Shown here: piece by piece, positions 14,696-44,313 of the stretch
Numbering within the stretch: position 1 is the stretch's first letter
Layout of the letters: each line of letters opens with the position of its first letter
Assembly: GCF_001652725.1 (NCBI RefSeq)
Contig: NZ_LWHJ01000029.1
Location: 186,001 to 250,000, forward strand
DNA from: Pedobacter psychrophilus
GTDB taxonomy: Bacteria; Bacteroidota; Bacteroidia; Sphingobacteriales; Sphingobacteriaceae
DNA: 64,000 nt
Direction: 5' to 3'
Position numbers and translations under genes: made by a program
Notes under the pieces: generated by a model
What the model was told of the DNA's origin: nothing
What the model saw: only the letters and a program-made list of their open reading frames with translations
The model's database searches: none

Positions 14696-16843
14696 AGCCC
14701 TTGCTTCTTCTACACTTCTTAAATAAAATTTTGCTTCAGATATGCTGCTACCCACTTTTATGGTAGTGGCACTATATGGCAAACTGGTAAAGATATCCTC
14801 ATCAGTATGGTCATCGCCCATGGCCAAAATAAAATCAAAATTTTTGCCGTAAATATATGATGCAGCTGCTTTACCCTTATTTATTTGTGAGTTTTTAATC
14901 TCAACAACTTTATTTCCTGGCAATAATTGCAAATCTTTTTCACGGATTAAATACCTCATATTGCTAATCAATTCATTTGCCCTTAAATCACCCAAGCCTT
15001 TTTCTACTTTTCGATAATGCCAGGCTAAAGAAAACCGTTTTTCTTCTATAAAGCTACCTGCAGTTCTATCAGAATAAGATTCTAACATTGGCATTACAGC
15101 TTGTTTCCATTTGTCAGAAAGGTTTGGTTCTTCTTGCCAATCTTTCCCTTCAAACTTTTTCCAAGCTCCGTGTTCTGCAATAAGATCAACTTTTAAATGC
15201 CCAAACCATTCTCCTAAAGTTTCATATTTTCTTCCGCTTATAATTACGATTTGGTTTCGATCATCGCTATTTAAATCATTTATAATTTGATACAATTCTT
15301 CATCTGGTTTCGCCTCTAGCGGATTTCCATTAAAATTTACCAATGTTCCATCATAATCTAAAAAGAAGACTCTTTTTTTTGATGCTTTAATGGCTTCTTT
15401 AAACTGATGTTTTAAATCCTGGTTCACATATTTTGCCATTCGTGATTTTTCTTCCTCTTTTACCTCTTCTAATTGATTCATAAATATTTTTACCCAATGG
15501 TTGATATCGAATTTCATTACTGTTTTTCTCAAGTTTTTCATCCTCGAGATTTTCTCTTCTTCTGGCATTTCTAAAGCCTCAACAATTGCTCTGTACATTT
15601 CTCCCAAATTATTAGGATTTACAATTATTGCCTCAATTAATTCTTTGGAAGCTCCCGCCATTTCACTCAAAATCAATACACCGGTCTCATCAGTTTTGCT
15701 GGCAATATATTCTTTACTTACTAAATTCATTCCGTCTCGCATTGGTGTAACTAAACAAATATCAGCTCTAGAATATAATGAGGAAAGTATTTCTATCGGA
15801 AATGATCGATAAAAATAATGGATTGGATGCCAGGCCGAAGTTCTATACCTGGAATTTATATTACCGACCAATTTATCAATATCATCCCTTAAATCCCTGT
15901 ATTGAGGAATGGTATCACGAGAAGGCACAACAATCATATGCATTGATATTTTCTCTAGATATTGAGGGTTGTCTGCTAAAACCTTATCAAAAGCCAAAAG
16001 CCTTTGTATGATTCCTTTACTATAATCTAAACGATCTATAGAAAGTATAATCTTGGTGTCGCCAATTATTTGATTGTAAATTTCTTTCTCTTCTAAAACT
16101 TCTTTAGTGAAAGTTAAGTCGTTAAACTTTTTAGAGTCTATTCCCATCGGGAAAGCATCGATAACAATGTTTCTATCATCTTTATGAATGATATTTGCGG
16201 TAGTTTGTACTGGTAAAACCCTGGTTGCCGAACTTGTAAAATGTCGCACATCATCATAAGTATGAAAGCCAATTAAATCTGCACCTAATATTCCATCTAA
16301 TAATTCTGCTCGCCAGGGGATTAACCTGAAAAGTTCGTAAGATGGGAAAGGAATGTGTTGGAAAAACCCAATTGTGGTATTTGGCAATTCCTCTCTAATC
16401 ATCTGCGGAAGCAATAATAGTTGATAATCGTGAATCCAAATGATATCGCCTGGTTTTGCAATTTTTAATACAACGTTTTTGAATTTCTCATTAACTAATC
16501 TGTAATAATCCCAATATTCTTGTTCGTATTGAGCGTATGTACTCATATAATGAAATATTGGCCATAACGTCTCATTAGAAAAACCTTCATAATAATTCTG
16601 GATTTCTTTTGGAGTTAAAAAGACTGGTAAAAGATTTTCCTGTTTAAGTTTATCAATAATTTCTTGTTCATCACTTTTAGGAACGTCTAAACCCGCCCAG
16701 CCAATCCAAATATTATCTCCTTCTTTGTATATCGAGCCTAAGCCTGTCGCTAGTCCTCCCTCACTCACTTTTAAGTGATATTCTTCGTTTTCTTTTGCGA
16801 TTTTGACTGGTAAACGGTTAGAAATAATAATGGTCTTCCTCAT
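14672..16843 (-). CDS. Bifunctional trehalose-6-phosphate synthase / trehalose-phosphatase
   Basis: Makes trehalose from UDP-glucose and glucose-6-phosphate in two steps. The N-terminal OtsA-type GT20 domain (about 1-470) shows SNRLPV, GGLATGL, WIHDYQLLLLPQMIRE, SIDRLDYSKGI and TPMRDGMNLVSKEY. The C-terminal OtsB domain (about 485-723) is a HAD phosphatase with nucleophile motif LDYDGTLV near 493-500 and GDDHTDEDIF near the end. OtsA-OtsB fusions are common in Bacteroidota. It converges on and overlaps the GH15 gene by 24 nt, so the two transcripts are antisense over their ends. Confidence 0.95.
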   Translation of the reverse strand: MRKTIIISNRLPVKIAKENEEYHLKVSEGGLATGLGSIYKEGDNIWIGWAGLDVPKSDEQEIIDKLKQENLLPVFLTPKEIQNYYEGFSNETLWPIFHYMSTYAQYEQEYWDYYRLVNEKFKNVVLKIAKPGDIIWIHDYQLLLLPQMIREELPNTTIGFFQHIPFPSYELFRLIPWRAELLDGILGADLIGFHTYDDVRHFTSSATRVLPVQTTANIIHKDDRNIVIDAFPMGIDSKKFNDLTFTKEVLEEKEIYNQIIGDTKIILSIDRLDYSKGIIQRLLAFDKVLADNPQYLEKISMHMIVVPSRDTIPQYRDLRDDIDKLVGNINSRYRTSAWHPIHYFYRSFPIEILSSLYSRADICLVTPMRDGMNLVSKEYIASKTDETGVLILSEMAGASKELIEAIIVNPNNLGEMYRAIVEALEMPEEEKISRMKNLRKTVMKFDINHWVKIFMNQLEEVKEEEKSRMAKYVNQDLKHQFKEAIKASKKRVFFLDYDGTLVNFNGNPLEAKPDEELYQIINDLNSDDRNQIVIISGRKYETLGEWFGHLKVDLIAEHGAWKKFEGKDWQEEPNLSDKWKQAVMPMLESYSDRTAGSFIEEKRFSLAWHYRKVEKGLGDLRANELISNMRYLIREKDLQLLPGNKVVEIKNSQINKGKAAASYIYGKNFDFILAMGDDHTDEDIFTSLPYSATTIKVGSSISEAKFYLRSVEEARALLQHFCS

Positions 16844-16999
16844 AACTTTTAAATAATATGACTGGTTTCACCAAAAATGAAGCAATAATGCTACCATCAA
16901 TTTATTTAAGCATTAATGTTTTAATAAAAAATATAAGTTATTAGTTTAATAAAGGCAAGAATTTTGATTGTTAATTATATAAATTTTAAAATTGATAGT

Positions 17000-18112
17000 A
17001 TGATGATGGTTCTCCAATTGAAAATAGATTCAGATATTTTTTCTTATTTAAGTCACCTTCCTAATTTTGTTTATAACCTCATTATTCTATTAATTTCTGT
17101 TGCTTTTGCATTTTTACTTAAAGCAATATTTTATAGCCTAACATCTTATTATAGAAAGCATGAGCATTTCAGTTTTTTAAGATCTATGGTTCTACATTTA
17201 AGTAAACCACTTAATTTTTTTCTGCCTTTAGTTTCCATCAATTCCTTCTCTAACCTTATGAAGCTTTCTAAAATTGAAAGTGACATTTTAGATAAAGCTA
17301 TAGAGATAGGTTTGATCATATCGTTTTCCTACATCTTAATTAATTTGATTAGGGTTATCCAGGATTTTTTTATTTCTACTTATGATTTAAAAAAAGAAAA
17401 TAACCTTAAGGAACGTAAAATAAGGACTCAACTACAGTTCTTAAAAAAGTTTTTAGTGGCCTTAATTTTAGTTTTAACAGTTGCAGCCATACTTTTTAGC
17501 TTTGATGGGATGAGAAAAATTGGTACCGGACTTTTAACAAGTGTTGGTATTGGTGGAATAATTATAGGTTTTGCCGCACAAAAATCTCTGGGAAATTTGC
17601 TAGCCGGTTTTCAGATTGCTTTTACGCAACCTATTCGTATAGATGATGTTTTAGTAGTAGAAGGCGAATGGGGAAAAGTAGAAGAAATCACTTTAACTTA
17701 TGTGGTGATTCAAATTTGGGATCAACGCAGATTAATTTTACCCATTACCTACTTTATAGAGAAACCCTTTCAAAACTGGACAAGAATTTCTGCAGAGATT
17801 TTGGGAACTGTTTTTTTATATGTTGATTATACTTTACCCTTGGCAGATTTAAGAAAAGAGTATGATAGATTAATAGATAATCATCCCCTTTGGGATAAAA
17901 AAGTAAAAGTGATACAAGTAACGGATAGTAAAGAAACAGTGATGGAAGTGCGGATATTATTGAGTGCAAATAATTCTTCTGACGCTTTTGATTTGCGTTG
18001 CGATATTAGAGAAGGGTTAATCACCTTTATCCAAAAAAACTATCCAAACAGTTTACCAAGAACCAGATCAGAGTTTATAGGAAATAAAGAAAATGGCTTT
18101 TTAAAATCATAA
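17000..18112 (+). CDS. MscS-family mechanosensitive ion channel
   Basis: Inner-membrane channel that opens under hypo-osmotic tension. About four membrane helices span residues 20-200; the pore-lining helix and MscS beta domain are recognisable in GTGLLTSVGIGGIIIGFAAQ and QPIRIDDVLVVEGEWGKVEEI. A cytoplasmic alpha/beta C-terminal domain follows. I prefer the ATG at 17000 (370 residues) over an in-frame TTG at 16964 because the first twelve codons from the TTG look non-coding; three ATGs occur at 17000, 17003 and 17006. It neighbours trehalose genes, consistent with osmotic adaptation. Confidence 0.9.
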   Translation: MMMVLQLKIDSDIFSYLSHLPNFVYNLIILLISVAFAFLLKAIFYSLTSYYRKHEHFSFLRSMVLHLSKPLNFFLPLVSINSFSNLMKLSKIESDILDKAIEIGLIISFSYILINLIRVIQDFFISTYDLKKENNLKERKIRTQLQFLKKFLVALILVLTVAAILFSFDGMRKIGTGLLTSVGIGGIIIGFAAQKSLGNLLAGFQIAFTQPIRIDDVLVVEGEWGKVEEITLTYVVIQIWDQRRLILPITYFIEKPFQNWTRISAEILGTVFLYVDYTLPLADLRKEYDRLIDNHPLWDKKVKVIQVTDSKETVMEVRILLSANNSSDAFDLRCDIREGLITFIQKNYPNSLPRTRSEFIGNKENGFLKS

Positions 18113-18158
18113 AACAGTCATATATTTTAGATGTAGAAAAATTATAAGTTTAAACATC

Positions 18159-18166
18159 TATTTTTG
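18159..18166 (+). promoter_or_regulatory. -7 promoter box for nitroreductase gene
   Basis: TATTTTTG, an exact TAnnTTTG match, 16 nt upstream of the ATG at 18183. Confidence 0.5.
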
Positions 18167-18182
18167 AAGAAAAAACTTAAAC

Positions 18183-18824
18183 ATGGAAAATAATAAAGAA
18201 ATTATAAGTGCGCTAAACTGGAGATATGCAACCAAAGGTTTTGATACCAGCAAAAAATTAAGTGAAGGTCAGTTGAATTTATTGTTAGATGCAGTTCAGC
18301 TTGCTCCAAGTTCTTACGGTTTACAGCCTTATCAAATTATTGTAGTAACTAATCAGGAAATAAAAGAAAAATTAAAAGCAGCAGCTTACGGTCAGCCACA
18401 ATTAACAGATGCATCTCATGTTTTTGTTTTCGCTATCAATAAAAATTACACTACACAACATGTAGATGATTATGCAAATAACATCGCAGCAACAAGAAAT
18501 ATAGAAGTTTCAGACATCCAGGGTTTTGTGGATACCATGAAAGGTACAGTTGAATCTCGTACACAAGAAGAATTAGCGGTTTGGAATGCCAAACAAGCTT
18601 ACATTGCTTTAGGTATTTTATTAGAAACTGCTGCGTTAGCAGAAATTGATGCTTGCCCAATGGAAGGTTTTAACAATGCACAATTTGATGAGATTTTAGG
18701 CTTAGCCGATAAAAACTTGACTTCTGTTGTTATTGCACCAACAGGTTTCAGATCAGCTGATGATGCTTACCAACATTTTGCTAAAGTGAGAAAATCCAAA
18801 GAAGATTTGTTTATACATATTTAA
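18183..18824 (+). CDS. NAD(P)H-dependent nitroreductase-family oxidoreductase
   Basis: The 213-residue protein belongs to the NfsB-like flavin (FMN) nitroreductases, which reduce quinones, nitro compounds or other electrophiles in the cytoplasm. LNWRYATKGFD at the N-terminus, LAPSSYGLQPYQIIVV (FMN-binding region), and WNAKQAYIALGILLETAALAEIDACPMEGF are family motifs. The gene has its own promoter box and a strong terminator downstream, so it is monocistronic. The physiological substrate cannot be told. Confidence 0.93.
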   Translation: MENNKEIISALNWRYATKGFDTSKKLSEGQLNLLLDAVQLAPSSYGLQPYQIIVVTNQEIKEKLKAAAYGQPQLTDASHVFVFAINKNYTTQHVDDYANNIAATRNIEVSDIQGFVDTMKGTVESRTQEELAVWNAKQAYIALGILLETAALAEIDACPMEGFNNAQFDEILGLADKNLTSVVIAPTGFRSADDAYQHFAKVRKSKEDLFIHI

Positions 18825-18847
18825 GAGGTTTTAATCTTTTTGAAATG

Positions 18848-18880
18848 AAAAAAGCCATCTCACATAAGATGGCTTTTTTT
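18848..18880. terminator. Bidirectional rho-independent terminator
   Basis: A 13-bp perfect stem (848-860 with 867-879 of the 18 kb block; core GCCATCT / AGATGGC) is flanked by an A run and a T run. It can stop the nitroreductase transcript and the convergent gene at 18905-19741. Confidence 0.9.
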
Positions 18881-18904
18881 GTTTTAAATTAGTTGTAAAC
18901 TTTA

Positions 18905-19741
18905 CTAAAATCCAAAATTTACATTAATCACTTTATTGTTTCCATTATCTAAAGAATTTCTTAAATCATAAGTGTCATTCTGCAAATTGATAATTGCTAA
19001 TTCTCTATTACTAATTTGCTGAGAACTTAAAGTTGGTCTTTGTGCCGTTAATTGTTGTTGAGAGTTTGTTAACTTACTGATTGCTAAAGCCAATAATTGT
19101 TCGCCAAGTGAAAGCGTTTCAGTCGTTTCTACGTATTGATTATAATAGTTATTTCTAGTTTCCCAGTAGGTATCACTATGCGGACTTCTATCCCAATCCT
19201 TACATTCTCCTAAATAATCGCCATGGTTTAAATGAGCTTGAACAGCATTTTCAGATACATTAATCATCACTGGATAATCAGAACCATTTGGTTTATGACA
19301 AATATTTACCTTTTTGCTGTTTTTAGGATATTTTGCATCATAATAATTTTCACCTGTAAACCATACAATTCCCGGATAGTAATTTTGATTTACCCATTTA
19401 TCCTTTTTATTGCCTTTTAATTTAGACATTCTGTAAGCAAAACGATCATCGTCCCATTTTCCATCTACCCACCTTTCTTCTTCTTTATATTTTTTGTTTG
19501 CCTCTTTTTCCCAGCTTTTATTTGACTTATCAATCTCTTTGCCTAACTTTTTGAAGTCTTTTTCTGGTTTACCTTTATCAAAATTTTTATTATTTCCCTT
19601 ATCCTCTTTTTGATGATTCTCAGAATGGTTTTTATCCTTAGGACCTTTATTTTTATCCTGTCCTTTACCCTGCTCAAAACTTGATGTAGTAATCATTATT
19701 AGTGGAACAATAGCTACAGTTATTAAATATCCTATTCTCAT
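18905..19741 (-). CDS. Exported Lys/Asp/Asn-rich protein with CH...AHLxHGD...C motif
   Basis: The 278-residue protein has a short N-terminal signal or anchor (about 3-20) and then a highly charged low-complexity region (22-90) of KDK/NKN/EKD repeats. Residues 144-180 carry a recognisable motif: VNICHKPNGSDYP, SENAVQAHLNHGDYLGEC, with C148, H149, H170, H173 and C180 as possible metal ligands. I recall this motif in many secreted Bacteroidota proteins, but no function is established to my knowledge. A Gln-rich tail (220-260) follows. A small lipoprotein gene lies 6 nt upstream on the same strand. Confidence 0.75.
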   Translation of the reverse strand: MRIGYLITVAIVPLIMITTSSFEQGKGQDKNKGPKDKNHSENHQKEDKGNNKNFDKGKPEKDFKKLGKEIDKSNKSWEKEANKKYKEEERWVDGKWDDDRFAYRMSKLKGNKKDKWVNQNYYPGIVWFTGENYYDAKYPKNSKKVNICHKPNGSDYPVMINVSENAVQAHLNHGDYLGECKDWDRSPHSDTYWETRNNYYNQYVETTETLSLGEQLLALAISKLTNSQQQLTAQRPTLSSQQISNRELAIINLQNDTYDLRNSLDNGNNKVINVNFGF

Positions 19742-19747
19742 TTCTTT

Positions 19748-19960
19748 TTAGTTTTTAGTTTCAAATTTATCATCCAAATCTTTCATAGATTTTTTAATTT
19801 TCTCTATATCCTCACTTACTTTTTTATCTGTTTGTTTCAGTGAGTCTTGTGTTACTTCCATTTCGGTAACTTCTGGTTCTTTTGGTTCAGAACTGCATGA
19901 CGTTATTATCATAGCATATAATAAGCAACCTAATAGACTGTAAATAGTGGATTTTTTCAT
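19748..19960 (-). CDS. Small predicted lipoprotein
   Basis: The 70-residue protein has a lipoprotein signal (MKKSTIYSLLG... IITSC, lipidated Cys at 22) and then a strongly charged helical tail (EKIKKSMKDLDDKFETKN) that could form a short coiled coil. No family recognised. It is the first gene of a two-gene unit with the exported protein at 18905-19741, 6 nt apart, and is divergent from the TonB receptor at 20189. Confidence 0.65.
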   Translation of the reverse strand: MKKSTIYSLLGCLLYAMIITSCSSEPKEPEVTEMEVTQDSLKQTDKKVSEDIEKIKKSMKDLDDKFETKN

Positions 19961-20110
19961 TTATTAAAATTTTTTATGAATAATTAAATATGTTTCTCTA
20001 AAAAATTGACATTTAACTTCAATTACAAAAATCTTGCCGCTTATTATAATGTTATCCTCGTGATATAACTATTTATATCCTAACCAAATTATAGTTGTTC
20101 AAACATAATA

Positions 20111-20126
20111 TTTAGACAAGTCTAAA
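20111..20126. promoter_or_regulatory. Perfect-arm palindrome, candidate metalloregulator operator
   Basis: TTTAGACAAGTCTAAA has 7-bp perfect arms around AA, 30 nt upstream of the -7 box of the TonB receptor gene at 20189 and in the divergent region with the lipoprotein gene. The size and TTTAG...CTAAA ends resemble DtxR/MntR-type operators; the assignment to a metal repressor is inference. Confidence 0.45.
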
Positions 20127-20155
20127 AATATATTTATAATATCAATATATTTAAT

Positions 20156-20163
20156 TAGTTTTG
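20156..20163 (+). promoter_or_regulatory. -7 promoter box for TonB receptor / redox cluster
   Basis: TAGTTTTG matches TAnnTTTG exactly, 25 nt upstream of the ATG at 20189. The -33 region is only TTTA-like. Confidence 0.45.
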
Positions 20164-20188
20164 TTTAAAAAAATATTTTAGTTGTTTT

Positions 20189-22651
20189 ATGAAAACATAT
20201 TTATTCTCTGCATTTCTAATATTGTTAGTTAATTCATGTTTAGGTCAAGATTTTTCAATTTCAGGGACAATTAGAGATAAAAGCAATAGTCAGCCCATTA
20301 GCTTTGGAAGGGTGGGAATTGTATCAAGTAATATTGGAGTAAAAACAGATTTAAACGGCAGGTTTAGTCTAAAAATCCCTCAAAACAAAACGGATTCATA
20401 CCTCATTGTTTCATGTGTAGGTTATCAATCGGATACACTTATCATAGTGAAAGGCAAATTAATCTACGCAATTGTTCTTGAACCTACCAATAGCAACTTA
20501 AACGAGGTGGTAGTAACTGGCGTTTCTAGGGCTACATTGGCAAGAGAAAACCCAATCCCCATTGTTAGTGTTTCGGCAAAAAAAATAGAGCAAACCATAG
20601 AAAGCAATTTGATAGATGCATTAGTGAAAAATGTTCCAGGTTTAAATGCAGTAAAAACCGGCCCAAATATCTCTAAACCTTTTATACGTGGTTTAGGATA
20701 TAACCGGGTATTAACACTTTATGATGGAATTAGACAAGAAGGACAGCAATGGGGAGATGAACATGGAATTGAGGTTGATCCTTACAATATTGAAAGGGCA
20801 GAAGTTGTTAAAGGCCCATCCAGTTTAATTTATGGTTCTGATGCTTTAGCCGGTGTGGTTGGTTTAATCCCTTCTTCTCCTAATCATACTGACGGTTTAG
20901 TAAAAGGGAAATTTACCTCAGAATATCAGGGAAATAATTCTTTGATAGGAAACGGACTGGGTTTAACCTATGGAAATGAGCACTGGAGTTATGCTTTGCG
21001 AGGCTCTTACCGAATGGCAAAAAATTATCAAAATAATATTGACGGCAGGGTTTATAATAGTGGATATAAAGAAGCAAGTGCTTCTGGAGCTATTAAATAC
21101 ATAAGCAACACGGGTTCAACAGCTTTAAATGCTACTCTATATAATAATTATCAGGGCATCCCCGATGGAAGTAGGGATTCTTTAAGTCGGAAATTTACCT
21201 ATCAAACAAATGAAGGTATTAATGATGATATTTTAAATAGGCCAATTGTATCTGATGATATTCTAAACTCATATCAACAAAGTTCTTTAAATCAACATAT
21301 CCAACATTATCGTGTTTACACAAAAGGTAATTACCAAATTGGTGCGATTGGTACAATAGATGCTTTGATTGCTTTTCAACAAAATATTAGAAAAGAATTT
21401 ACACACCCAATGTTTATAAAACAAGCTGGTTTATTTGTTAGATTAAATACGATTAATTATGGCGTAAACTATAATTTACCAACATTTTCGAATATAAATT
21501 TTTCTATAGGATTTAACGGAATGTATCAAAATAATAGGAATAAAGATGCTACAGATTTTCCTATTCCTAATTATAATCTATTTGACGCCGGTATTTATGG
21601 TTTTGCAAAATGGAAGCAGAAAAACTGGACGATTGGCGCTGGTGTAAGGTATGATCAAAGAAATATAAATAGCGATGATTTCTTCACACAAAAAAATCCT
21701 AAAACTGGTTTTGATAGAGAAGCTGAGAATGGAAGTTCTGCTGGATCATACCTACAATTTCCTTCATTTGATAAAGTTTTTAACGGCATTTCTCTAAGTT
21801 TTGGGAGTACTTATGCAATTAATAAATCTGTTAGCCTAAAAGCTAATGTTGCTAGAGGCTACAGAGCACCAAGCATTCCCGAGTTTTCCTCTAACGGACT
21901 TGATCCTGGTGCGCATATTATTTATCTTGGAAATAGAGATTTTAATCCAGAATTTTCTTTGCAACAGGATTTTGGTATTGACATTAACACCAAAAACTTT
22001 AATACCACTTTTAGTATTTTTAATAATAATATTTCAAATTATATTTTTCTTTCTCAATTAATAGATGTCAATAATAACCCGATAGTAGATGCGCAAGGAA
22101 ATAAAACATATCAATATCAGCAATCTAAAGCTCAAATTTATGGCTTAGAAGCTTCATTTGATTTACACCCAGAAACATGGAAAGGCTTTAGGATCTCTAA
22201 CTCGTTGGCATTAACTTATGGTTTTAATAAAAATAAAGCTTTTAATAATTTAGGCCTACAAGGAGAATATCTTCCGTTAATTCCTCCTTTGCATATAATT
22301 ACAAGTATAAGCCAGGAAATAAACCTAAATTCTGATGTTATAAAATCCTTTAATATAAGGTTAGAGGCAGATATAAATGGGTCACAAAGCCGGTATCTAA
22401 AACTAAATAATACAGAAACGTTTACTCCAGGCTATACTTTAATAGATTTTAGTACTAGCGTAAACGTTAGGTATGCCGAGAATAGACACTTATCATTACA
22501 GTTATCGATAAATAATTTATTTGATAAGACCTATCAATCTAACCTTAACAGATTAAAATATTTCGAGTATTACGAAGCTTCTCCTAGCGGTAATTTAGGG
22601 ATATTTAACATGGGGAGAAATCTCTGTTTAAAAGCTATTGTTCCTTTTTGA
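20189..22651 (+). CDS. TonB-dependent outer-membrane receptor
   Basis: 820-residue receptor with a signal peptide (about 1-19, SCLGQ), a carboxypeptidase-like regulatory domain (about 22-105; SISGTIRDKSNSQPISFG), and a plug domain (about 115-235; ESNLIDALVKNVPGLNAV, RGLGYNRVLTLYDGIRQEGQ, VVKGPSSLIYGSDALAGVVG). A C-terminal beta-barrel follows with the typical end NLFDKTYQSNLNRLKYFEYY. The plug sequence resembles the copper/zinc/heme-type receptor group more than siderophore receptors, but the ligand is not provable from sequence. It is the first gene of the cluster running to 26300 and is separated from the Rieske gene by 211 nt. Confidence 0.93.
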   Translation: MKTYLFSAFLILLVNSCLGQDFSISGTIRDKSNSQPISFGRVGIVSSNIGVKTDLNGRFSLKIPQNKTDSYLIVSCVGYQSDTLIIVKGKLIYAIVLEPTNSNLNEVVVTGVSRATLARENPIPIVSVSAKKIEQTIESNLIDALVKNVPGLNAVKTGPNISKPFIRGLGYNRVLTLYDGIRQEGQQWGDEHGIEVDPYNIERAEVVKGPSSLIYGSDALAGVVGLIPSSPNHTDGLVKGKFTSEYQGNNSLIGNGLGLTYGNEHWSYALRGSYRMAKNYQNNIDGRVYNSGYKEASASGAIKYISNTGSTALNATLYNNYQGIPDGSRDSLSRKFTYQTNEGINDDILNRPIVSDDILNSYQQSSLNQHIQHYRVYTKGNYQIGAIGTIDALIAFQQNIRKEFTHPMFIKQAGLFVRLNTINYGVNYNLPTFSNINFSIGFNGMYQNNRNKDATDFPIPNYNLFDAGIYGFAKWKQKNWTIGAGVRYDQRNINSDDFFTQKNPKTGFDREAENGSSAGSYLQFPSFDKVFNGISLSFGSTYAINKSVSLKANVARGYRAPSIPEFSSNGLDPGAHIIYLGNRDFNPEFSLQQDFGIDINTKNFNTTFSIFNNNISNYIFLSQLIDVNNNPIVDAQGNKTYQYQQSKAQIYGLEASFDLHPETWKGFRISNSLALTYGFNKNKAFNNLGLQGEYLPLIPPLHIITSISQEINLNSDVIKSFNIRLEADINGSQSRYLKLNNTETFTPGYTLIDFSTSVNVRYAENRHLSLQLSINNLFDKTYQSNLNRLKYFEYYEASPSGNLGIFNMGRNLCLKAIVPF

Positions 22652-22862
22652 TCATTTTACGATGATTTAAAAAACCAATTTTACTTATAACTTTAAAGAG
22701 ATTATCAATTTAAATATTTATGTTTTTGTTTGACAATCTGATTATATTTCCATAAAATTCTTCAGGAAATACTCAATATTAAATTGAATATTTAATCGTT
22801 AATAAAATCACAATTAGTATAGGGTAAAATCTATGATAATCGGTTTAGTTTAAATAGTTAAT

Positions 22863-23288
22863 ATGGACAGGAAAGAATTTTTAACTGCAATAGGTATGGG
22901 TGCTGCTTCTGTTGCGGTATTCAACTGTATAGGATGTTCCAAATCCTCAACAGAAGGAGGTCCATCTACACCAGCACCTACAAATGCTGATTTCACATTA
23001 GATTTATCATCATCTGCAAATTTAGTTTTAAATACCAATGGAGGTTATATTTATGCTAATGGTATTATTGTTGCCCGAACAACATCAGGCAATTATATCG
23101 CCGTTTCTCAAACTTGCCGACACGAAAATACAAATGTGATTTACAGGTCAACTCAAAATCAATTTTATTGTCAAAGGCATGGAGCAACTTATTCAGATAC
23201 GGGCGTCTCTTCAGGAATTGAAACTAATTTGCCATTAACAAAATACAACACACAATTAATTGGTACAAAACTTCGTATCTATTCTTAA
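22863..23288 (+). CDS. Rieske [2Fe-2S] lipoprotein
   Basis: The 141-residue protein starts MDRKEFLTAIGMGAAS, a hydrophobic export signal, with a probable lipidation Cys at 22 or 25 (FNCIGCSKSS). The Rieske cluster motifs are C85-x-H87 (TCRHEN) and C103-x2-H106 (FYCQRHGATYS), so a complete His/Cys ligand set is present. Expected to sit in the periplasm, anchored to a membrane, as a one-electron carrier. The next gene, a thioredoxin-like protein, starts 12 nt after it, and the ApbE, DUF4266 and DUF3570 genes follow on the same strand. Confidence 0.9.
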   Translation: MDRKEFLTAIGMGAASVAVFNCIGCSKSSTEGGPSTPAPTNADFTLDLSSSANLVLNTNGGYIYANGIIVARTTSGNYIAVSQTCRHENTNVIYRSTQNQFYCQRHGATYSDTGVSSGIETNLPLTKYNTQLIGTKLRIYS

Positions 23289-23300
23289 ACATTTAAAATT

Positions 23301-23729
23301 ATGAAACTTTTAAGCATCTTCTTTTTATCATTTTTCCTATCAGGTAATACTTGGGTTTTAGATATTAACCAGGCCGAATCTGTAGCAAAAGAAAATCACA
23401 AATATATTTTAATCAATTTTTCAGGCTCAGACTGGTGTGGGCCTTGTATCCGTACCCACAAAGAAATTTTTGAAAAGGAAGCTTTTGAGAATTATGCAGA
23501 TAAAAACCTGGTTTTGGTTAGGGCCGATTTTCCTAGATTAAAGAAAAATCAATTACCTACAGAGCAGTTGAAAAAAAATAACGAATTAGCGGTAAAATAT
23601 AATCCTGAAGGAGATTTCCCTTTAACAGTTTTAACGGATGAAGATGGAAAAGTGATAAAAGAGTGGAAAGGCTTTCCAAACTGCTCTTCAGAAGATTTTG
23701 TTAAACAGGTAACAGATGCCATCCGCTAA
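23301..23729 (+). CDS. Exported thioredoxin-family protein
   Basis: The 142-residue protein has an N-terminal export signal (about 1-15) and a thioredoxin fold with redox motif C46-G-P-C49 in SGSDWCGPCIRTHKEIF. The DWCGPC form with KYILINFSGS before it resembles the thiol:disulfide interchange (DsbD C-terminal/TlpA-like) group. It probably reduces a periplasmic or outer-membrane partner. It overlaps the next gene by 14 nt. Confidence 0.9.
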   Translation: MKLLSIFFLSFFLSGNTWVLDINQAESVAKENHKYILINFSGSDWCGPCIRTHKEIFEKEAFENYADKNLVLVRADFPRLKKNQLPTEQLKKNNELAVKYNPEGDFPLTVLTDEDGKVIKEWKGFPNCSSEDFVKQVTDAIR

Positions 23730-24690
23730 TTTAACTACTCAACAAGTATTTAAACAATCGATGAAACTGATGGGTAATCAGTTTGAGATTTCTGTTGTGG
23801 CAAATAATTTGGCTTTCGCCGATGAAAAAACACAATTGGCCGTTACAGAAATTAAAAGAATTGAACAATTACTCACCACTTTTAAACCAGATAGCCAGAC
23901 CAATAAAATCAATGAAAATGCAGGGATTGCTCCTGTAAAAGTTGATACAGAAGTTTTTCATTTAATCCAACGCTCCATACGTATATCAGAAATTAGCCAG
24001 GGTGCATTTGACATTACTTATGGTTCTTTAGATAAACGCTTTTGGAACTTTGATACTCAAATGGAAAGCCTTCCAGATAAAGAATCTGCAAAAAAATCAG
24101 TTTCATTAATCAATTATAAAAATGTGGTTTTAGATTTAAAGGCTCAAACTGTTTTTTTAAAAGAAAAGGGAATGAGAATTGGTTTTGGAGGAATTGGTAA
24201 AGGTTATGCAGCAGATAGGGCAAAGAGAATTTTACAAGAAGCAGGTGTGGAAAGCGGCATTGTAAATGCGTCTGGAGACTTAAGTACTTGGGGAACACAA
24301 CCTTCTGGCAAACCCTGGACAGTTGGAATTGCCGACCCAGAACATAAATCTAACCCATTTTCTTTTATGGATATCAGTAACATGGCTATTGCAACTTCCG
24401 GTAATTATGAAAAGTTTGCAGTGATTAACGGAAAGAAATATTCACACACTATTGATCCTCATACAGGTTTTCCGGTTTCAGGGATTAAAAGTGTAAGTAT
24501 TATTTGTCCGCAAGCAGAACTGGCTGATGCTTTAGCCACACCAGTAATGGTTATGGGTGTAGAAGTTGGTTTAAATTTAATTAATCAATTAAGTAATATT
24601 GCATGTATTATAATTGATGATTATAATCAATTACATACCTCAAAAAATATTAATATAAATCCAACAAAAGGCCAATTAAACTATGCCTAA
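23716..24690 (+). CDS. ApbE-family FAD:protein FMN transferase
   Basis: ApbE enzymes transfer FMN from FAD onto a Thr/Ser of extracytoplasmic proteins. The 324-residue protein has the family motifs GFGGIGKGYAADRAK, VNASGDLSTWG, TSGNYEKF, HTIDPHTGFPV and LADALATPVMVMG (metal and FAD-binding residues). No obvious signal peptide or lipobox is seen at its N-terminus (MPSANLTTQQVFKQS), which is unusual since target proteins are normally outside the cytoplasm. It overlaps the thioredoxin gene by 14 nt, so it is surely co-translated. Its likely target lies among its neighbours. Confidence 0.93.
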   Translation: MPSANLTTQQVFKQSMKLMGNQFEISVVANNLAFADEKTQLAVTEIKRIEQLLTTFKPDSQTNKINENAGIAPVKVDTEVFHLIQRSIRISEISQGAFDITYGSLDKRFWNFDTQMESLPDKESAKKSVSLINYKNVVLDLKAQTVFLKEKGMRIGFGGIGKGYAADRAKRILQEAGVESGIVNASGDLSTWGTQPSGKPWTVGIADPEHKSNPFSFMDISNMAIATSGNYEKFAVINGKKYSHTIDPHTGFPVSGIKSVSIICPQAELADALATPVMVMGVEVGLNLINQLSNIACIIIDDYNQLHTSKNININPTKGQLNYA

Positions 24691-24700
24691 AAATTATAAT

Positions 24701-24919
24701 ATGAAAAAGTTAACCCCTTACGCAATTTTGGCATTTTCGCTTTTGGCATTTAGCTCATGCAGTAGTGTAAAATCTTATGATAAGATTAAGTTGAAAGATG
24801 CAGAAATGGAATTAGGCGCAAGAAGAGCAGAGAAATTTGAACAAAATTCTCAACTTTATCGCGAGGGTTCTTCCGGAGCAAACGGAGGAAAAAGTGGTGG
24901 TGGTTGCGGATGTAATTAA
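24701..24919 (+). CDS. DUF4266 small lipoprotein with Gly/Cys-rich tail
   Basis: A 72-residue protein from the ATG at 24701, which begins directly with a lipoprotein signal (MKKLTPYAIL ... LLAFSSC, Cys at 20); an in-frame ATG at 24683 would only add MPKNYN. The mature part is a short charged helix (KIKLKDAEMELGARRAEKFE) and a C-terminal tail SSGANGGKSGGGCGCN. DUF4266 genes usually sit beside DUF3570 genes, as here. Function unknown. The SGA element recalls the flavinylation consensus but lacks the acceptor Thr/Ser at the last position. Confidence 0.85.
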   Translation: MKKLTPYAILAFSLLAFSSCSSVKSYDKIKLKDAEMELGARRAEKFEQNSQLYREGSSGANGGKSGGGCGCN

Positions 24920-24932
24920 TCCAAAAAGATCA

Positions 24933-25022
24933 TCATGTCGACGATATTGGAAATCTCACAAATAGGTTTTCAGTTTAAATAGATACTCTGCTATTGAGAT
25001 ATCTCGCTACCTTGACATGACG
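24933..25022. repeat. Dispersed hairpin repeat, family 2, copy D
   Basis: A region of about 90 bp between the DUF4266 and DUF3570 genes with imperfect terminal inverted repeats: TCATGTCGACGATATTGG at the left and the complement of CTACCTTGACATGACGG at the right, with inner arms AAATCTCAC and GAGATATCT. A full relative lies at 38797-38884 and a half copy at 38711-38775. Confidence 0.7.
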
Positions 25023-25100
25023 GATAGTAGATTAAAACGCCTAAATAATTATCATCATCTTCATTAATTTGAACGCTCAAATCAATTTTTAAATATTCAA

Positions 25101-26300
25101 ATGAAATACATTTCATTAACCATTGTAGCATTATATTTAGGTATAGTTGCAAGTTTTGCCCAAGTAATAAACAAGGATTCTGTTCCTTATGAAAAGCGCA
25201 AATTAAAATTTGAACAGGCTGATTTGGTAAACAGTTATTATCATCAGGATGGAAATAACTCTGCCGTTACTGGAGGTTTGGGCACTGAGAAATTAACGGA
25301 TTTTTCTAATACGTTTGACTTGCGACTATCTCGTTATGGTAAAACCGGTTTAAAGCATACCTATAATTTTGAACTTGGTGTTGATACTTACACATCTGCC
25401 TCTTCCGCCAATATAGAAATAAGTGCAACAAGCGGCCCTTCTTACTCTGATATAAGGGTTTATCCATCGTTAAGTTGGGATATAGCAAACGAACAGAAGG
25501 GTCGTAGTTTTGGTTTTGATGTTTCTGCCTCTGGCGAATTTGATTATACTTCTTTTGGTGGAGGATTACATTATTCAAAATCATCAAAAAATAAAAATAC
25601 TGATGTTGATATTAAGCTAAAAGCTTTTTTTGACACGTGGAAAGTGATTTTGCCTTATGAATTGAGGCCTGACAATAACAGTGGCCCCGGCTATCAACAA
25701 AACGATAGAGCACCAAGAAATTCTTTTAGTGGCTCATTTAGTTTATCGCAGATTTTTACTAAGAATTTTCAGGCGATGTTAATGATAGAACCTGCATTTC
25801 AACAAGGTTTATTAGCTACCCGTTATCAGCGAGTATATTTTACAAGCAATGCAGAACTTGCTGAATTTTTACCAGATAATAGGTTAAAATTACCCATTGG
25901 CGCCAGGTTGAATTATTTTTTAGGTGACAATTTAGTTTTCCGTTCTTTCTTTAGATATTATTCTGATAATTGGGGAATAAAATCCGAGACTGCCGAATTG
26001 GAAACTTCGATAAAGCTAAATCCTTTCTCATCTATAAGTCCGTTTTATAGGTATTATCAGCAAACCTCTGCAGATTATTTTGCTGCCTATGGTCAACATA
26101 AAATAAACGAGGAGTTTTATACAAGCGATTATGACTTATCTAAATTCCACAGTAATTTTTATGGAGCTGGGATAAGGTTTGCACCACCAACTGGTGTTTT
26201 GGGAATAAATAAATTAAAGATGATTGAGTTGAGATATGGGCATTACAACCGAAGCAATGGTTTAAATTCTAATATTGTAAGCATGAACCTAAGATTTTGA
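25101..26300 (+). CDS. DUF3570 predicted outer-membrane beta-barrel protein
   Basis: The 399-residue protein has a signal peptide (about 1-20, ASFAQ) and then repeated amphipathic beta strands, ending in SMNLRF with the terminal Phe expected of outer-membrane barrels. DUF3570 proteins are of unknown function and usually lie beside DUF4266, ApbE and thioredoxin genes. Near the N-terminus D95-TYTSAS-101 resembles the ApbE target consensus D-x-x-(S/T)-G-A-(S/T) with Gly replaced by Ser; a covalent FMN at S101 is a hypothesis. It follows the DUF4266 gene across a dispersed repeat. Confidence 0.85.
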   Translation: MKYISLTIVALYLGIVASFAQVINKDSVPYEKRKLKFEQADLVNSYYHQDGNNSAVTGGLGTEKLTDFSNTFDLRLSRYGKTGLKHTYNFELGVDTYTSASSANIEISATSGPSYSDIRVYPSLSWDIANEQKGRSFGFDVSASGEFDYTSFGGGLHYSKSSKNKNTDVDIKLKAFFDTWKVILPYELRPDNNSGPGYQQNDRAPRNSFSGSFSLSQIFTKNFQAMLMIEPAFQQGLLATRYQRVYFTSNAELAEFLPDNRLKLPIGARLNYFLGDNLVFRSFFRYYSDNWGIKSETAELETSIKLNPFSSISPFYRYYQQTSADYFAAYGQHKINEEFYTSDYDLSKFHSNFYGAGIRFAPPTGVLGINKLKMIELRYGHYNRSNGLNSNIVSMNLRF

Positions 26301-26402
26301 TGTTTAATACTTTTAAGTATTTTAATAAAATGTCTAATCTTAAAAATTTTAATAAATTTATTGATAAACTAAACTTTTTAATTTCTCTCTTGTTATTTAA
26401 CT

Positions 26403-26885
26403 ATGGCAAAAGCATCGTTATCAATTATCCAAGCTCTTAAAAAAACAGCTGCTAACTTAGAAAAAGGCTCTCAATACCAATGGGGACATATGGGTAGTTG
26501 TAATTGTGGTAATTTAGCTCAAGTTATAACCAATAAAGATAAAGCCGAAATCCATAAATCTGCTATGAGAAGACATGGAGATTGGAACGAACAATTAATA
26601 GATTATTGTCCAACTAGCGGTTTACCAATAGACCATATTATAGATGAAATGCTCGATTTTGGATTTACCAGAGCTGATTTATCACATCTGGAAAAACTAT
26701 CAGACCAAAACATTTTAAAAAATTTGCCTTTAGAAAAACGTCATTTAAAACATAACATTAAAAATGATGTGGTTTTATATCTTAGAATCTGGGCTACAAG
26801 TTTAGAAAATAGCTTGTTAAAAGATATCTCTATAGAAAACATTAATTTACCTGAAAAAGCTATTTCAGGTTTAGTTACCGTGTAA
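26403..26885 (+). CDS. Conserved hypothetical protein with CxC motif
   Basis: 160 residues, no signal peptide and no membrane segment, so presumably cytoplasmic. Possible metal ligands are C33 and C35 in GSCNCGNLAQ, H51 and H58, and C69. The middle part (HIIDEMLDFGFTRADLSHLEKLSD) is helical. I recall homologues in Bacteroidota but no function. The gene stands alone between the DUF3570 gene (102 nt upstream) and a DUF2911 gene (242 nt downstream). Confidence 0.75.
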   Translation: MAKASLSIIQALKKTAANLEKGSQYQWGHMGSCNCGNLAQVITNKDKAEIHKSAMRRHGDWNEQLIDYCPTSGLPIDHIIDEMLDFGFTRADLSHLEKLSDQNILKNLPLEKRHLKHNIKNDVVLYLRIWATSLENSLLKDISIENINLPEKAISGLVTV

Positions 26886-37452: not shown

Positions 37453-37545
37453 ATTTGGGCATTTTAACACGCTATACACTCTATCTTTTTTTGTTGAAAA
37501 GTCAAAAAAAGGATGCCGCTCCTATCGTTAATGCACTTCCAAAGC
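37453..37545 (+). repeat. Dispersed palindromic intergenic repeat, family 1, copy G (diverged)
   Basis: Lies in the 330-bp gap between pyrH and the radical SAM gene, which holds no real gene. It reads TTATTTGGGCATTTT, then GCTATACACTCTATC, a TTTTTTTG/CAAAAAAAGG arm pair, then GATGCCGCTCCTATCGTTAA. These modules are in the same order as in copy B at 44219-44313, but the GC-rich CCGCCAGCTGGCGG centre is replaced by TTGAAAAGT. Confidence 0.6.
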
Positions 37546-38670: not shown

Positions 38671-38710
38671 GCTTTCTATTATTGTATCAACTCTAGAAAA
38701 GACAAATTTT

Positions 38711-38775
38711 ATAAATAGGTTTGCAATTAGAATGACCAACTTGCTAATGAGATGTCTCGTTGCCTCGACATGACG
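38711..38775. repeat. Dispersed hairpin repeat, family 2, copy F (half copy)
   Basis: ATAAATAGGTTTGCAATTAG ... CTTGCTAATGAGATGTCTCG ... CCTCGACATGACG matches the right two thirds of copy E at 38797-38884; the left arm is missing. The two copies are in direct tandem, 22 nt apart. Confidence 0.75.
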
Positions 38776-38796: not shown

Positions 38797-38884
38797 TTAT
38801 GTCGACGATAGGAGACATCTCACAACTAGGTTTGCAGCTAGAATGGTAACTTGCTAATGAGATGTCCCGCTGCCTCGACATGAC
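38797..38884. repeat. Dispersed hairpin repeat, family 2, copy E
   Basis: A full copy of about 88 bp. The left arm TATGTCGACGATAGGAGACA and the complement of the right arm (TGTCCCGCTGCCTCGACATG) pair imperfectly, with inner ATCTCAC / TGAGAT continuing the stem around AGGTTTGCAGCTAGAATGG. This resembles the abundant intergenic TCATxTCGA...GAAATCTC elements I recall from Bacteroidota. Confidence 0.75.
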
Positions 38885-38934
38885 GAGAACCAAAAAATTT
38901 ATAGAAATTAAAAAATATCATAAGATTAGAAATC

Positions 38935-44218: not shown

Positions 44219-44313
44219 TTGGGCGTTCGGGCGGGCTTTACACTTTAGTTTTTGTCCGCCAGCTGGCGGACAAAAAAGCTGCCGTTTCAATCCCTAACGC
44301 AAAACTTATAAAA
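44219..44313 (+). repeat. Dispersed palindromic intergenic repeat, family 1, copy B
   Basis: The cleanest copy, in the 290-bp gap between der and the ABC ATPase gene. Order: TGGGCGTTCGGGCGGGCTTT, ACACTTTA, a perfect 28-bp palindrome (44249-44276; core GTCCGCCAGCTGGCGGAC), then AGCTGCCGTTTCAATCCCTA and ACGCAAAACTTATAAAA. It is the inverse of copy A at 5166-5285. A further common Bacteroidota word (TCTTGATTTTCAAGATTTTA) follows at about 44341. Confidence 0.85.

Follow-up and report, generated by a model that had tools for sequence, protein, structure and literature searches.

A DUF3570/DUF4266 flavinylation module of Sphingobacteriaceae with an apparently leaderless ApbE, a Rieske lipoprotein, and a possible link to metal stress

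The window analyzed here, a 64,000-nucleotide stretch of the Pedobacter psychrophilus genome (contig NZ_LWHJ01000029.1, positions 186,001 to 250,000), carries a five-gene block for a Rieske [2Fe-2S] lipoprotein, a thioredoxin-like protein, an ApbE flavin mononucleotide (FMN) transferase, a small DUF4266 lipoprotein, and a predicted DUF3570 outer-membrane barrel. Judged by its domains, the thioredoxin-ApbE-DUF4266-DUF3570 core is a member of a flavinylation module that has been published. With middling confidence, the block is read as the Sphingobacteriaceae version of this module, extended by the Rieske protein, in which FMN would be attached in the cytosol, the barrel exported, and electrons delivered in the envelope under metal stress. 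What is added to the published account is an ApbE without an evident leader, the Rieske partner, models of the barrel, the glycine-rich tail of DUF4266, and the genes that flank the block in relatives. A previous sequence-only reading of this DNA had proposed an uncharacterized, TonB-linked redox system. Its idea of an envelope flavin/thiol/iron-sulfur redox module around an outer-membrane barrel is supported, whereas its descriptions “uncharacterized,” “no assigned function” (of DUF3570 and DUF4266), and “TonB-linked” are not supported, and it missed both the apparently leaderless ApbE and the resistance-nodulation-division (RND), VIT1, cytochrome b561, and two-component genes that often neighbor the block in relatives.

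Clusters in which ApbE and DUF3570 stand together with a PF13899 thioredoxin and a DUF4266 bearing a CxC tail were described in 2021, in the main text of a study that called their function uncertain (Méheust et al., PMC8238504), and all four proteins occur together in the window. According to the same main text, DUF3570 of Chlorobium luteolum is flavinylated by its own ApbE at two [ST]GA[ST] sites, so that for one member of the family modification by ApbE is documented. The window shares these components with the published DUF3570/DUF4266 “DsbD” system but differs in its Rieske lipoprotein, its leaderless ApbE, and its degenerate second flavin site, and relatives of the window add b561, RND, and two-component neighbors. 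No DsbD gene lies beside the window cluster, and a DsbD_TM match is found on another contig (C30) of the same genome; such a neighbor is not required, because 316 of the published clusters were counted without one (PMC8238504). That main text makes no mention of Rieske, efflux, copper, b561, or “cytosolic ApbE,” the covered sections of Huang et al. 2024 (PMC11334425) contain no DUF3570 model, and no account in the covered literature on leaderless ApbE, flavinylated barrels, and a metal link was recognized as this system.

DUF4266 is present in 54 of the 198 genomes of a phylum sample and in 39 of the 151 genomes of the family Sphingobacteriaceae. Relatives of the block were compared at 150 loci (145 distinct), of which 70 were read wide, including 12 of a distant family (f16) whose remaining matches in the phylum sample were left out, and 80 were named loci obtained through alignment of DUF3570. 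As the 145 distinct loci were chosen by a match to DUF4266 or DUF3570, both are present by construction; ApbE is matched in 138 of them and the thioredoxin in 134. The order Rieske-thioredoxin-ApbE-DUF4266-DUF3570 is found again in other genera, which argues that the adjacency of these genes is more than chance.

The ApbE encoded in the window matches all three catalytic motifs (GGxxKG, HxxDPxTG, and DAxxT). Its domain begins about 19 residues past the first possible start of a 325-amino-acid open frame, with no strongly hydrophobic segment before it. Neither the signal peptide nor the lipobox of an extracytosolic ApbE was found by a hydrophobicity rule (own script with a threshold of 1.9, distinct from SignalP, applied to the longest open reading frames). 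By this rule, 124 of 148 distinct ApbEs are leaderless. The 24 that bear a leader comprise 13 block ApbEs of other lineages and all 11 non-block controls, some of them from the same genus (these controls are 11 of the 12 non-block ApbE matches, with the genomic context of L140 left out). In a careful tree of 65 sequences, the window ApbE belongs to a clade of 30 rows that are all leaderless, placed with a support of 100/100 among signal-bearing ApbEs. The leader state changes three times on this tree and three times on a quick tree of 148 sequences, versus 22.7 times on shuffling. All three motifs are matched in 106 of the 114 leaderless block ApbEs outside f16. In the lineage of the window, ApbE has probably lost its export signal and would act in the cytosol, ahead of barrel export. 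Little weight is placed on the ApbEs of f16, since these have diverged and show glycine at the position of the DAxxT aspartate in 10 of 10 cases.

Flavinylation of envelope proteins by ApbE is generally described as extracytosolic and as requiring the export of flavin adenine dinucleotide (FAD). The window ApbE might be exported without a recognizable signal peptide and flavinylate the barrel in the periplasm as in this usual model. Of the 148 ApbEs compared, 13 bear a signal and belong to the same kind of block, which indicates that a periplasmic order works there. To our knowledge, however, there is no export route for a protein without a recognizable signal peptide such as this one; the window ApbE lacks a hydrophobic segment ahead of its domain, and the loss of the leader is common to the whole clade, all of which makes a periplasmic attachment in this lineage quite improbable. 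A programmed frameshift giving an exported thioredoxin-ApbE fusion was also considered and rejected, as the gaps in genus g3 (+5, +8, +4, +8, +7, and +1 at L113, L109, L110, L114, L118, and L106) put ApbE in two different frames.

The likely substrate of this ApbE is the barrel. The genome of P. psychrophilus has a single ApbE match and no match for FMN_bind, NqrB/RnfD, or DUF2271, the flavinylated Flavodoxin_4 and FMN reductase types not having been searched for. Among the 151 genomes of the family, the 39 that have DUF4266 are exactly the 39 that have an ApbE at least 60% identical to that of the window (N-termini were read for part of these 39, with G331 left out). DUF2271 occurs in two genomes (G295 and G305), in each of them near a signal-bearing ApbE. 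A leaderless ApbE could instead modify a cytosolic protein, with its link to DUF3570 being indirect. The cytosolic ApbE of Klebsiella pneumoniae, as treated in the covered part of a review (PMC12052999), resembles that of the window in lacking a signal peptide, and it flavinylates a soluble cytosolic fumarate reductase, whereas the likely substrate in the window is a barrel with a signal peptide. Apparently leaderless paralogues also occur outside the block. Against a cytosolic substrate stand the limited domain search of the genome and the exact match of the 39 genomes, and we consider it improbable.

That FMN is attached to the barrel in the cytosol before export is possible and is the simplest reading. 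A hydrophobic leader is found on DUF3570 in 142 of the 145 loci. The C. luteolum protein was produced in Escherichia coli by a strategy called similar to one with a truncated signal peptide, and it was mostly in the pellet and yet flavinylated (PMC8238504, main text); an unfolded chain thus seems an acceptable substrate for ApbE. In addition, the lumen of SecYEG may open to 2.4 nm (review PMC6028853, in the part covered, citing Bonardi 2011), which together with the insoluble but flavinylated construct makes cytosolic attachment possible. The genome-by-genome link between an ApbE with no evident leader and an exported barrel suggests that even a bulky covalent cofactor can be attached prior to export.

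The DUF3570 of the window was modeled by AlphaFold2 from 68 rows, with a predicted local distance difference test score (pLDDT) of 87.6, a predicted template modeling score (pTM) of 0.81, and 16 strands as counted from the strand list. The model of a distant DUF3570 from f16 (38 rows) also has 16 strands, with a pLDDT of 85.2 and a pTM of 0.81. The top matches of the barrel model in the PDB are porins and other barrels, with template modeling scores of about 0.3 to 0.5. The two models agree broadly in loop lengths and place the flavin motif in the loop that joins strands 3 and 4. Outer-membrane barrels of this kind usually have both ends in the periplasm, and with this arrangement the modeled loop that carries the flavin motif probably faces outward. 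A relaxed pattern of the first site, [ST][SG]A[ST], is present in 136 of the 145 distinct DUF3570 sequences. Compared with the two [ST]GA[ST] sites, the window has TSAS at site 1, which fits only the relaxed form common to most relatives, and SGPS at site 2. Within the genus, site 2 has proline in place of alanine in five of eight genomes and reads TSAS in the other three, and the proline-bearing sequence is perhaps a one-flavin form. If the flavin does sit on an outward-facing loop, electrons could be transferred across the outer membrane without heme.

The remaining proteins of the block may supply these electrons. DUF4266 ends in a C-terminal CxC in all 126 distinct sequences, and in 122 of them this takes the form GGCGCN after a glycine-rich stretch, the window having GGGCGCN. 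This CGC tail could act as a swinging arm between the thioredoxin and the flavin. Mammalian thioredoxin reductase has a C-terminal redox arm with a flexible Gly/Cys end. The likeness lies in such an end possibly ferrying electrons between partners; DUF4266 differs in being a small lipoprotein, and the comparison is one of analogy, with no claim of homology.

The Rieske gene is a frequent partner of the block, mostly directly upstream of the thioredoxin. It is matched in 42 of the 145 distinct loci, although two of these matches are unrelated to the block and one is shortened. The ligand motif is present in 41 of 43 distinct Rieske matches, 39 of which have fewer than two extra cysteines in the motif; the matches with two extra cysteines (L138 and L152) are not block genes. 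In the window protein, no second cysteine pair is found in the CxHxxC...CxCH motif, which sets it apart from the bc1/b6f type. On general background, this difference from the bc1 type suggests a lower redox potential for the Rieske protein of the block.

The neighbors of the block in relatives may point to metals. Pedobacter-type loci such as L114 have, in this order, a response regulator, a PorY-family histidine kinase, cytochrome b561, VIT1, Rieske, thioredoxin, ApbE, DUF4266, and DUF3570, and the order in several Chryseobacterium loci is RND, adaptor, a protein of 127 to 130 amino acids, thioredoxin, ApbE, DUF4266, DUF3570, and VIT1. One RND member was typed (L106) and is a CusA/CzcA heavy-metal pump, with 1171 bits against a cut-off of 701. 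Among the 145 distinct loci, RND is found in 29 and the adaptor in 22 (both counted with profiles of the recurrent cluster), VIT1 in 32, b561 in 30, and the histidine kinase in 26, and at least one of these in 65. Of 41 VIT1 places, 12 lie within 12 kb of DUF4266; for a b561 subfamily the count is 18 of 26 places, and for other b561 it is 0 of 22, where chance would give about 0.5%. These neighbor statistics cover 41 DUF4266-positive genomes (37 of the 39 of the family and 4 of other families), with p-values that ignore shared ancestry, a subfamily split at E < 1e-20 that was set after the list had been seen, and rows dropped as fragments or under the cut-off (6 of 47 for VIT1 and 6 of 54 for b561). 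The 127- to 130-amino-acid protein (L106:336-719, L063:6886-7278, and others) has no Pfam or NCBIfam match; it recurs next to the block and the metal-type RND, with 23 occurrences among the 145 distinct loci.

Bacterial relatives of VIT1 are often exporters. This counts against the view that, instead of acting in metal stress, the module serves iron assimilation or reduces disulfides at the surface. The same can be said of the CusA/CzcA-type exporter, the adaptor, and the two-component genes that recur next to the block together with VIT1. A role in iron assimilation was proposed from 25 clusters that contain VIT1 (PMC8238504, main text), and a relay of thioredoxin and CxC tail would suit disulfide chemistry too; such a function is rather unlikely in our judgment. 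The efflux, VIT1, b561, and two-component neighbors of relatives offer concrete conditions under which to seek the function that was called uncertain in 2021 (PMC8238504, main text).

In the mechanism preferred here, the DUF3570 precursor would receive FMN from ApbE while still unfolded in the cytosol, which supplies FAD; the flavin-bearing chain would then pass through Sec and be inserted as a barrel that displays its FMN on the cell surface or close to it. Electrons would travel from a DsbD-family protein, which is encoded elsewhere in the genome of P. psychrophilus, to the thioredoxin, then to the CGC tail of DUF4266 and finally to FMN. Electrons of the quinone pool could enter by another path through the Rieske protein, joined in relatives by cytochrome b561. 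A metal ion located beyond the inner membrane would most likely be the acceptor, under the control of metal stress, and this is the weakest step. Threading of a precursor already carrying FMN through Sec and the barrel-assembly machinery, with the surface flavin fed by a lipoprotein thiol arm, would amount to a heme-free outer-membrane electron route under metal stress, an idea that is put forward tentatively and with some doubt. In porin-cytochrome electron conduits of the outer membrane, a barrel likewise brings electrons to the outer face. The proposed relation is a functional one only, with a barrel as the electron route outward; the block of the window differs in having no multiheme cytochrome in the Pfam search and, instead, a putative covalent flavin and a thiol tail.

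Several observations weigh against this mechanism. The absence of the leader depends on the hydrophobicity rule and on starts taken from the longest open reading frames. Ten Mucilaginibacter-type ApbE paralogues outside the block (L254 to L263) also look leaderless, nine of them by the rule and one (L256) with a value of 2.14, above the threshold of 1.9. These paralogues adjoin another barrel without a conserved [ST][SG]A[ST] motif, and none of the seven checked matches the catalytic pattern GGxxKG or HxxDPxTG, so that they appear degenerate; because they lack these patterns and their barrel lacks the motif, they are not counted as support. The flavin loop is poorly modeled, which leaves either a surface position of the flavin or one folded into the lumen, and site 2 of the window sequence is degenerate. 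At 80 of the 145 loci, no RND, adaptor, VIT1, b561, or histidine kinase was found. The block of the window is itself without metal-linked neighbors, its genome has no b561 match, and the metal link is therefore drawn from relatives only.

Three further non-block ApbEs (L264 to L266) have a leader. The Mucilaginibacter-type paralogues are located between a gene that we take from its sequence to be prfA-like and, on the other side, a small basic protein along with a barrel and a two-component pair. At the f16 loci (L128 to L139), thioredoxin, DUF4266, and DUF3570 are in many cases accompanied by a leaderless ApbE of separate frame and, downstream, by a thioredoxin protein of the size of DsbD.

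The TonB-dependent receptor upstream of the block had been taken by the sequence-only reading for a working part of the system, whose task would perhaps be to reduce metal complexes imported into the periplasm. It lies on the same strand, at a distance of 211 nucleotides (above the 200 that bound the other junctions), and resembles heme and siderophore receptors, though under every curated cut-off. A receptor homologue is, however, found in only 2 of the 145 distinct block loci, and in the genus it is missing beside the block in all seven other genomes that have one. Of the 17 other genus genomes searched, 1 (G335) has an orthologue, 80% identical, and no DUF4266 was found in this genome. When this locus (L267, contig C400) is compared with window positions 15001 to 26848, the receptor, the thioredoxin, and the flanking genes match, whereas Rieske, DUF4266, and DUF3570 have no match and ApbE is reduced to a match of 38 residues. 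The receptor has been kept there while the block decays, which argues that it is not tied to the block, and the Rieske gene is absent along with the flavin genes; the assembly of G335 is 77% complete, and this is one weak case. Together, the counts at the loci, the absence in the genus, and the state of G335 lead us to reject the receptor as part of the system, and the model of metal complex import is hardly credible.

The six open reading frames are all present where the sequence-only reading had placed them, each with its named domain above the Pfam cut-off, and the Rieske ligands, the CGPC motif, and the C-terminal phenylalanine of the barrel are exact (Table 1). The last five genes are separated by overlaps or gaps of less than 200 nucleotides, with junctions of 12, −14, −8, and 181 nucleotides.

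Table 1. Coordinates of the receptor, the genes of the block, and the flavinylation-like sites in the window
Feature	Position	Strand	Evidence and remarks
TonB-dependent receptor	20189-22651	+	Pfam TonB barrel 122.5 bits, Plug 84.7; upstream neighbor, judged outside the system
Rieske [2Fe-2S] lipoprotein, 141 amino acids	22863-23288	+	Pfam 34.2 bits (cut-off 20.3); ligands C85/H87/C103/H106
Exported thioredoxin-like protein	23301-23729	+	Pfam Thioredoxin_7 41.3 bits; CGPC at residue 46
ApbE FMN transferase without evident signal peptide	23716-24690	+	Pfam 283.7 bits; possible later start 23761
DUF4266 small lipoprotein, C terminus GGGCGCN	24683-24919	+	Pfam 61.5 bits; likely true start 24701
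DUF3570, predicted 16-strand outer-membrane barrel, putative flavin carrier	25101-26300	+	Pfam 90.5 bits; AlphaFold2 model; PDB barrel matches
Flavinylation-like site 1, DTYTSAS, DUF3570 residues 95-101, barrel loop 2	25383-25403	+	
Degenerate site 2, TSGPS, DUF3570 residues 110-114, Pro instead of Ala	25428-25442	+	

The gap between DUF4266 and DUF3570 (24920 to 25100) is short in most relatives, unlike in the window, where it contains a repeat with two diverged copies at 38704 to 38775 and 38799 to 38885 (77 to 80% identity). As a structured RNA, this gap is unsupported (z of −0.55). Elsewhere in the window, Flavo-1 RNA is matched twice on the minus strand, at 37461 to 37536 and 44225 to 44305, with both matches exceeding the gathering score of Rfam.

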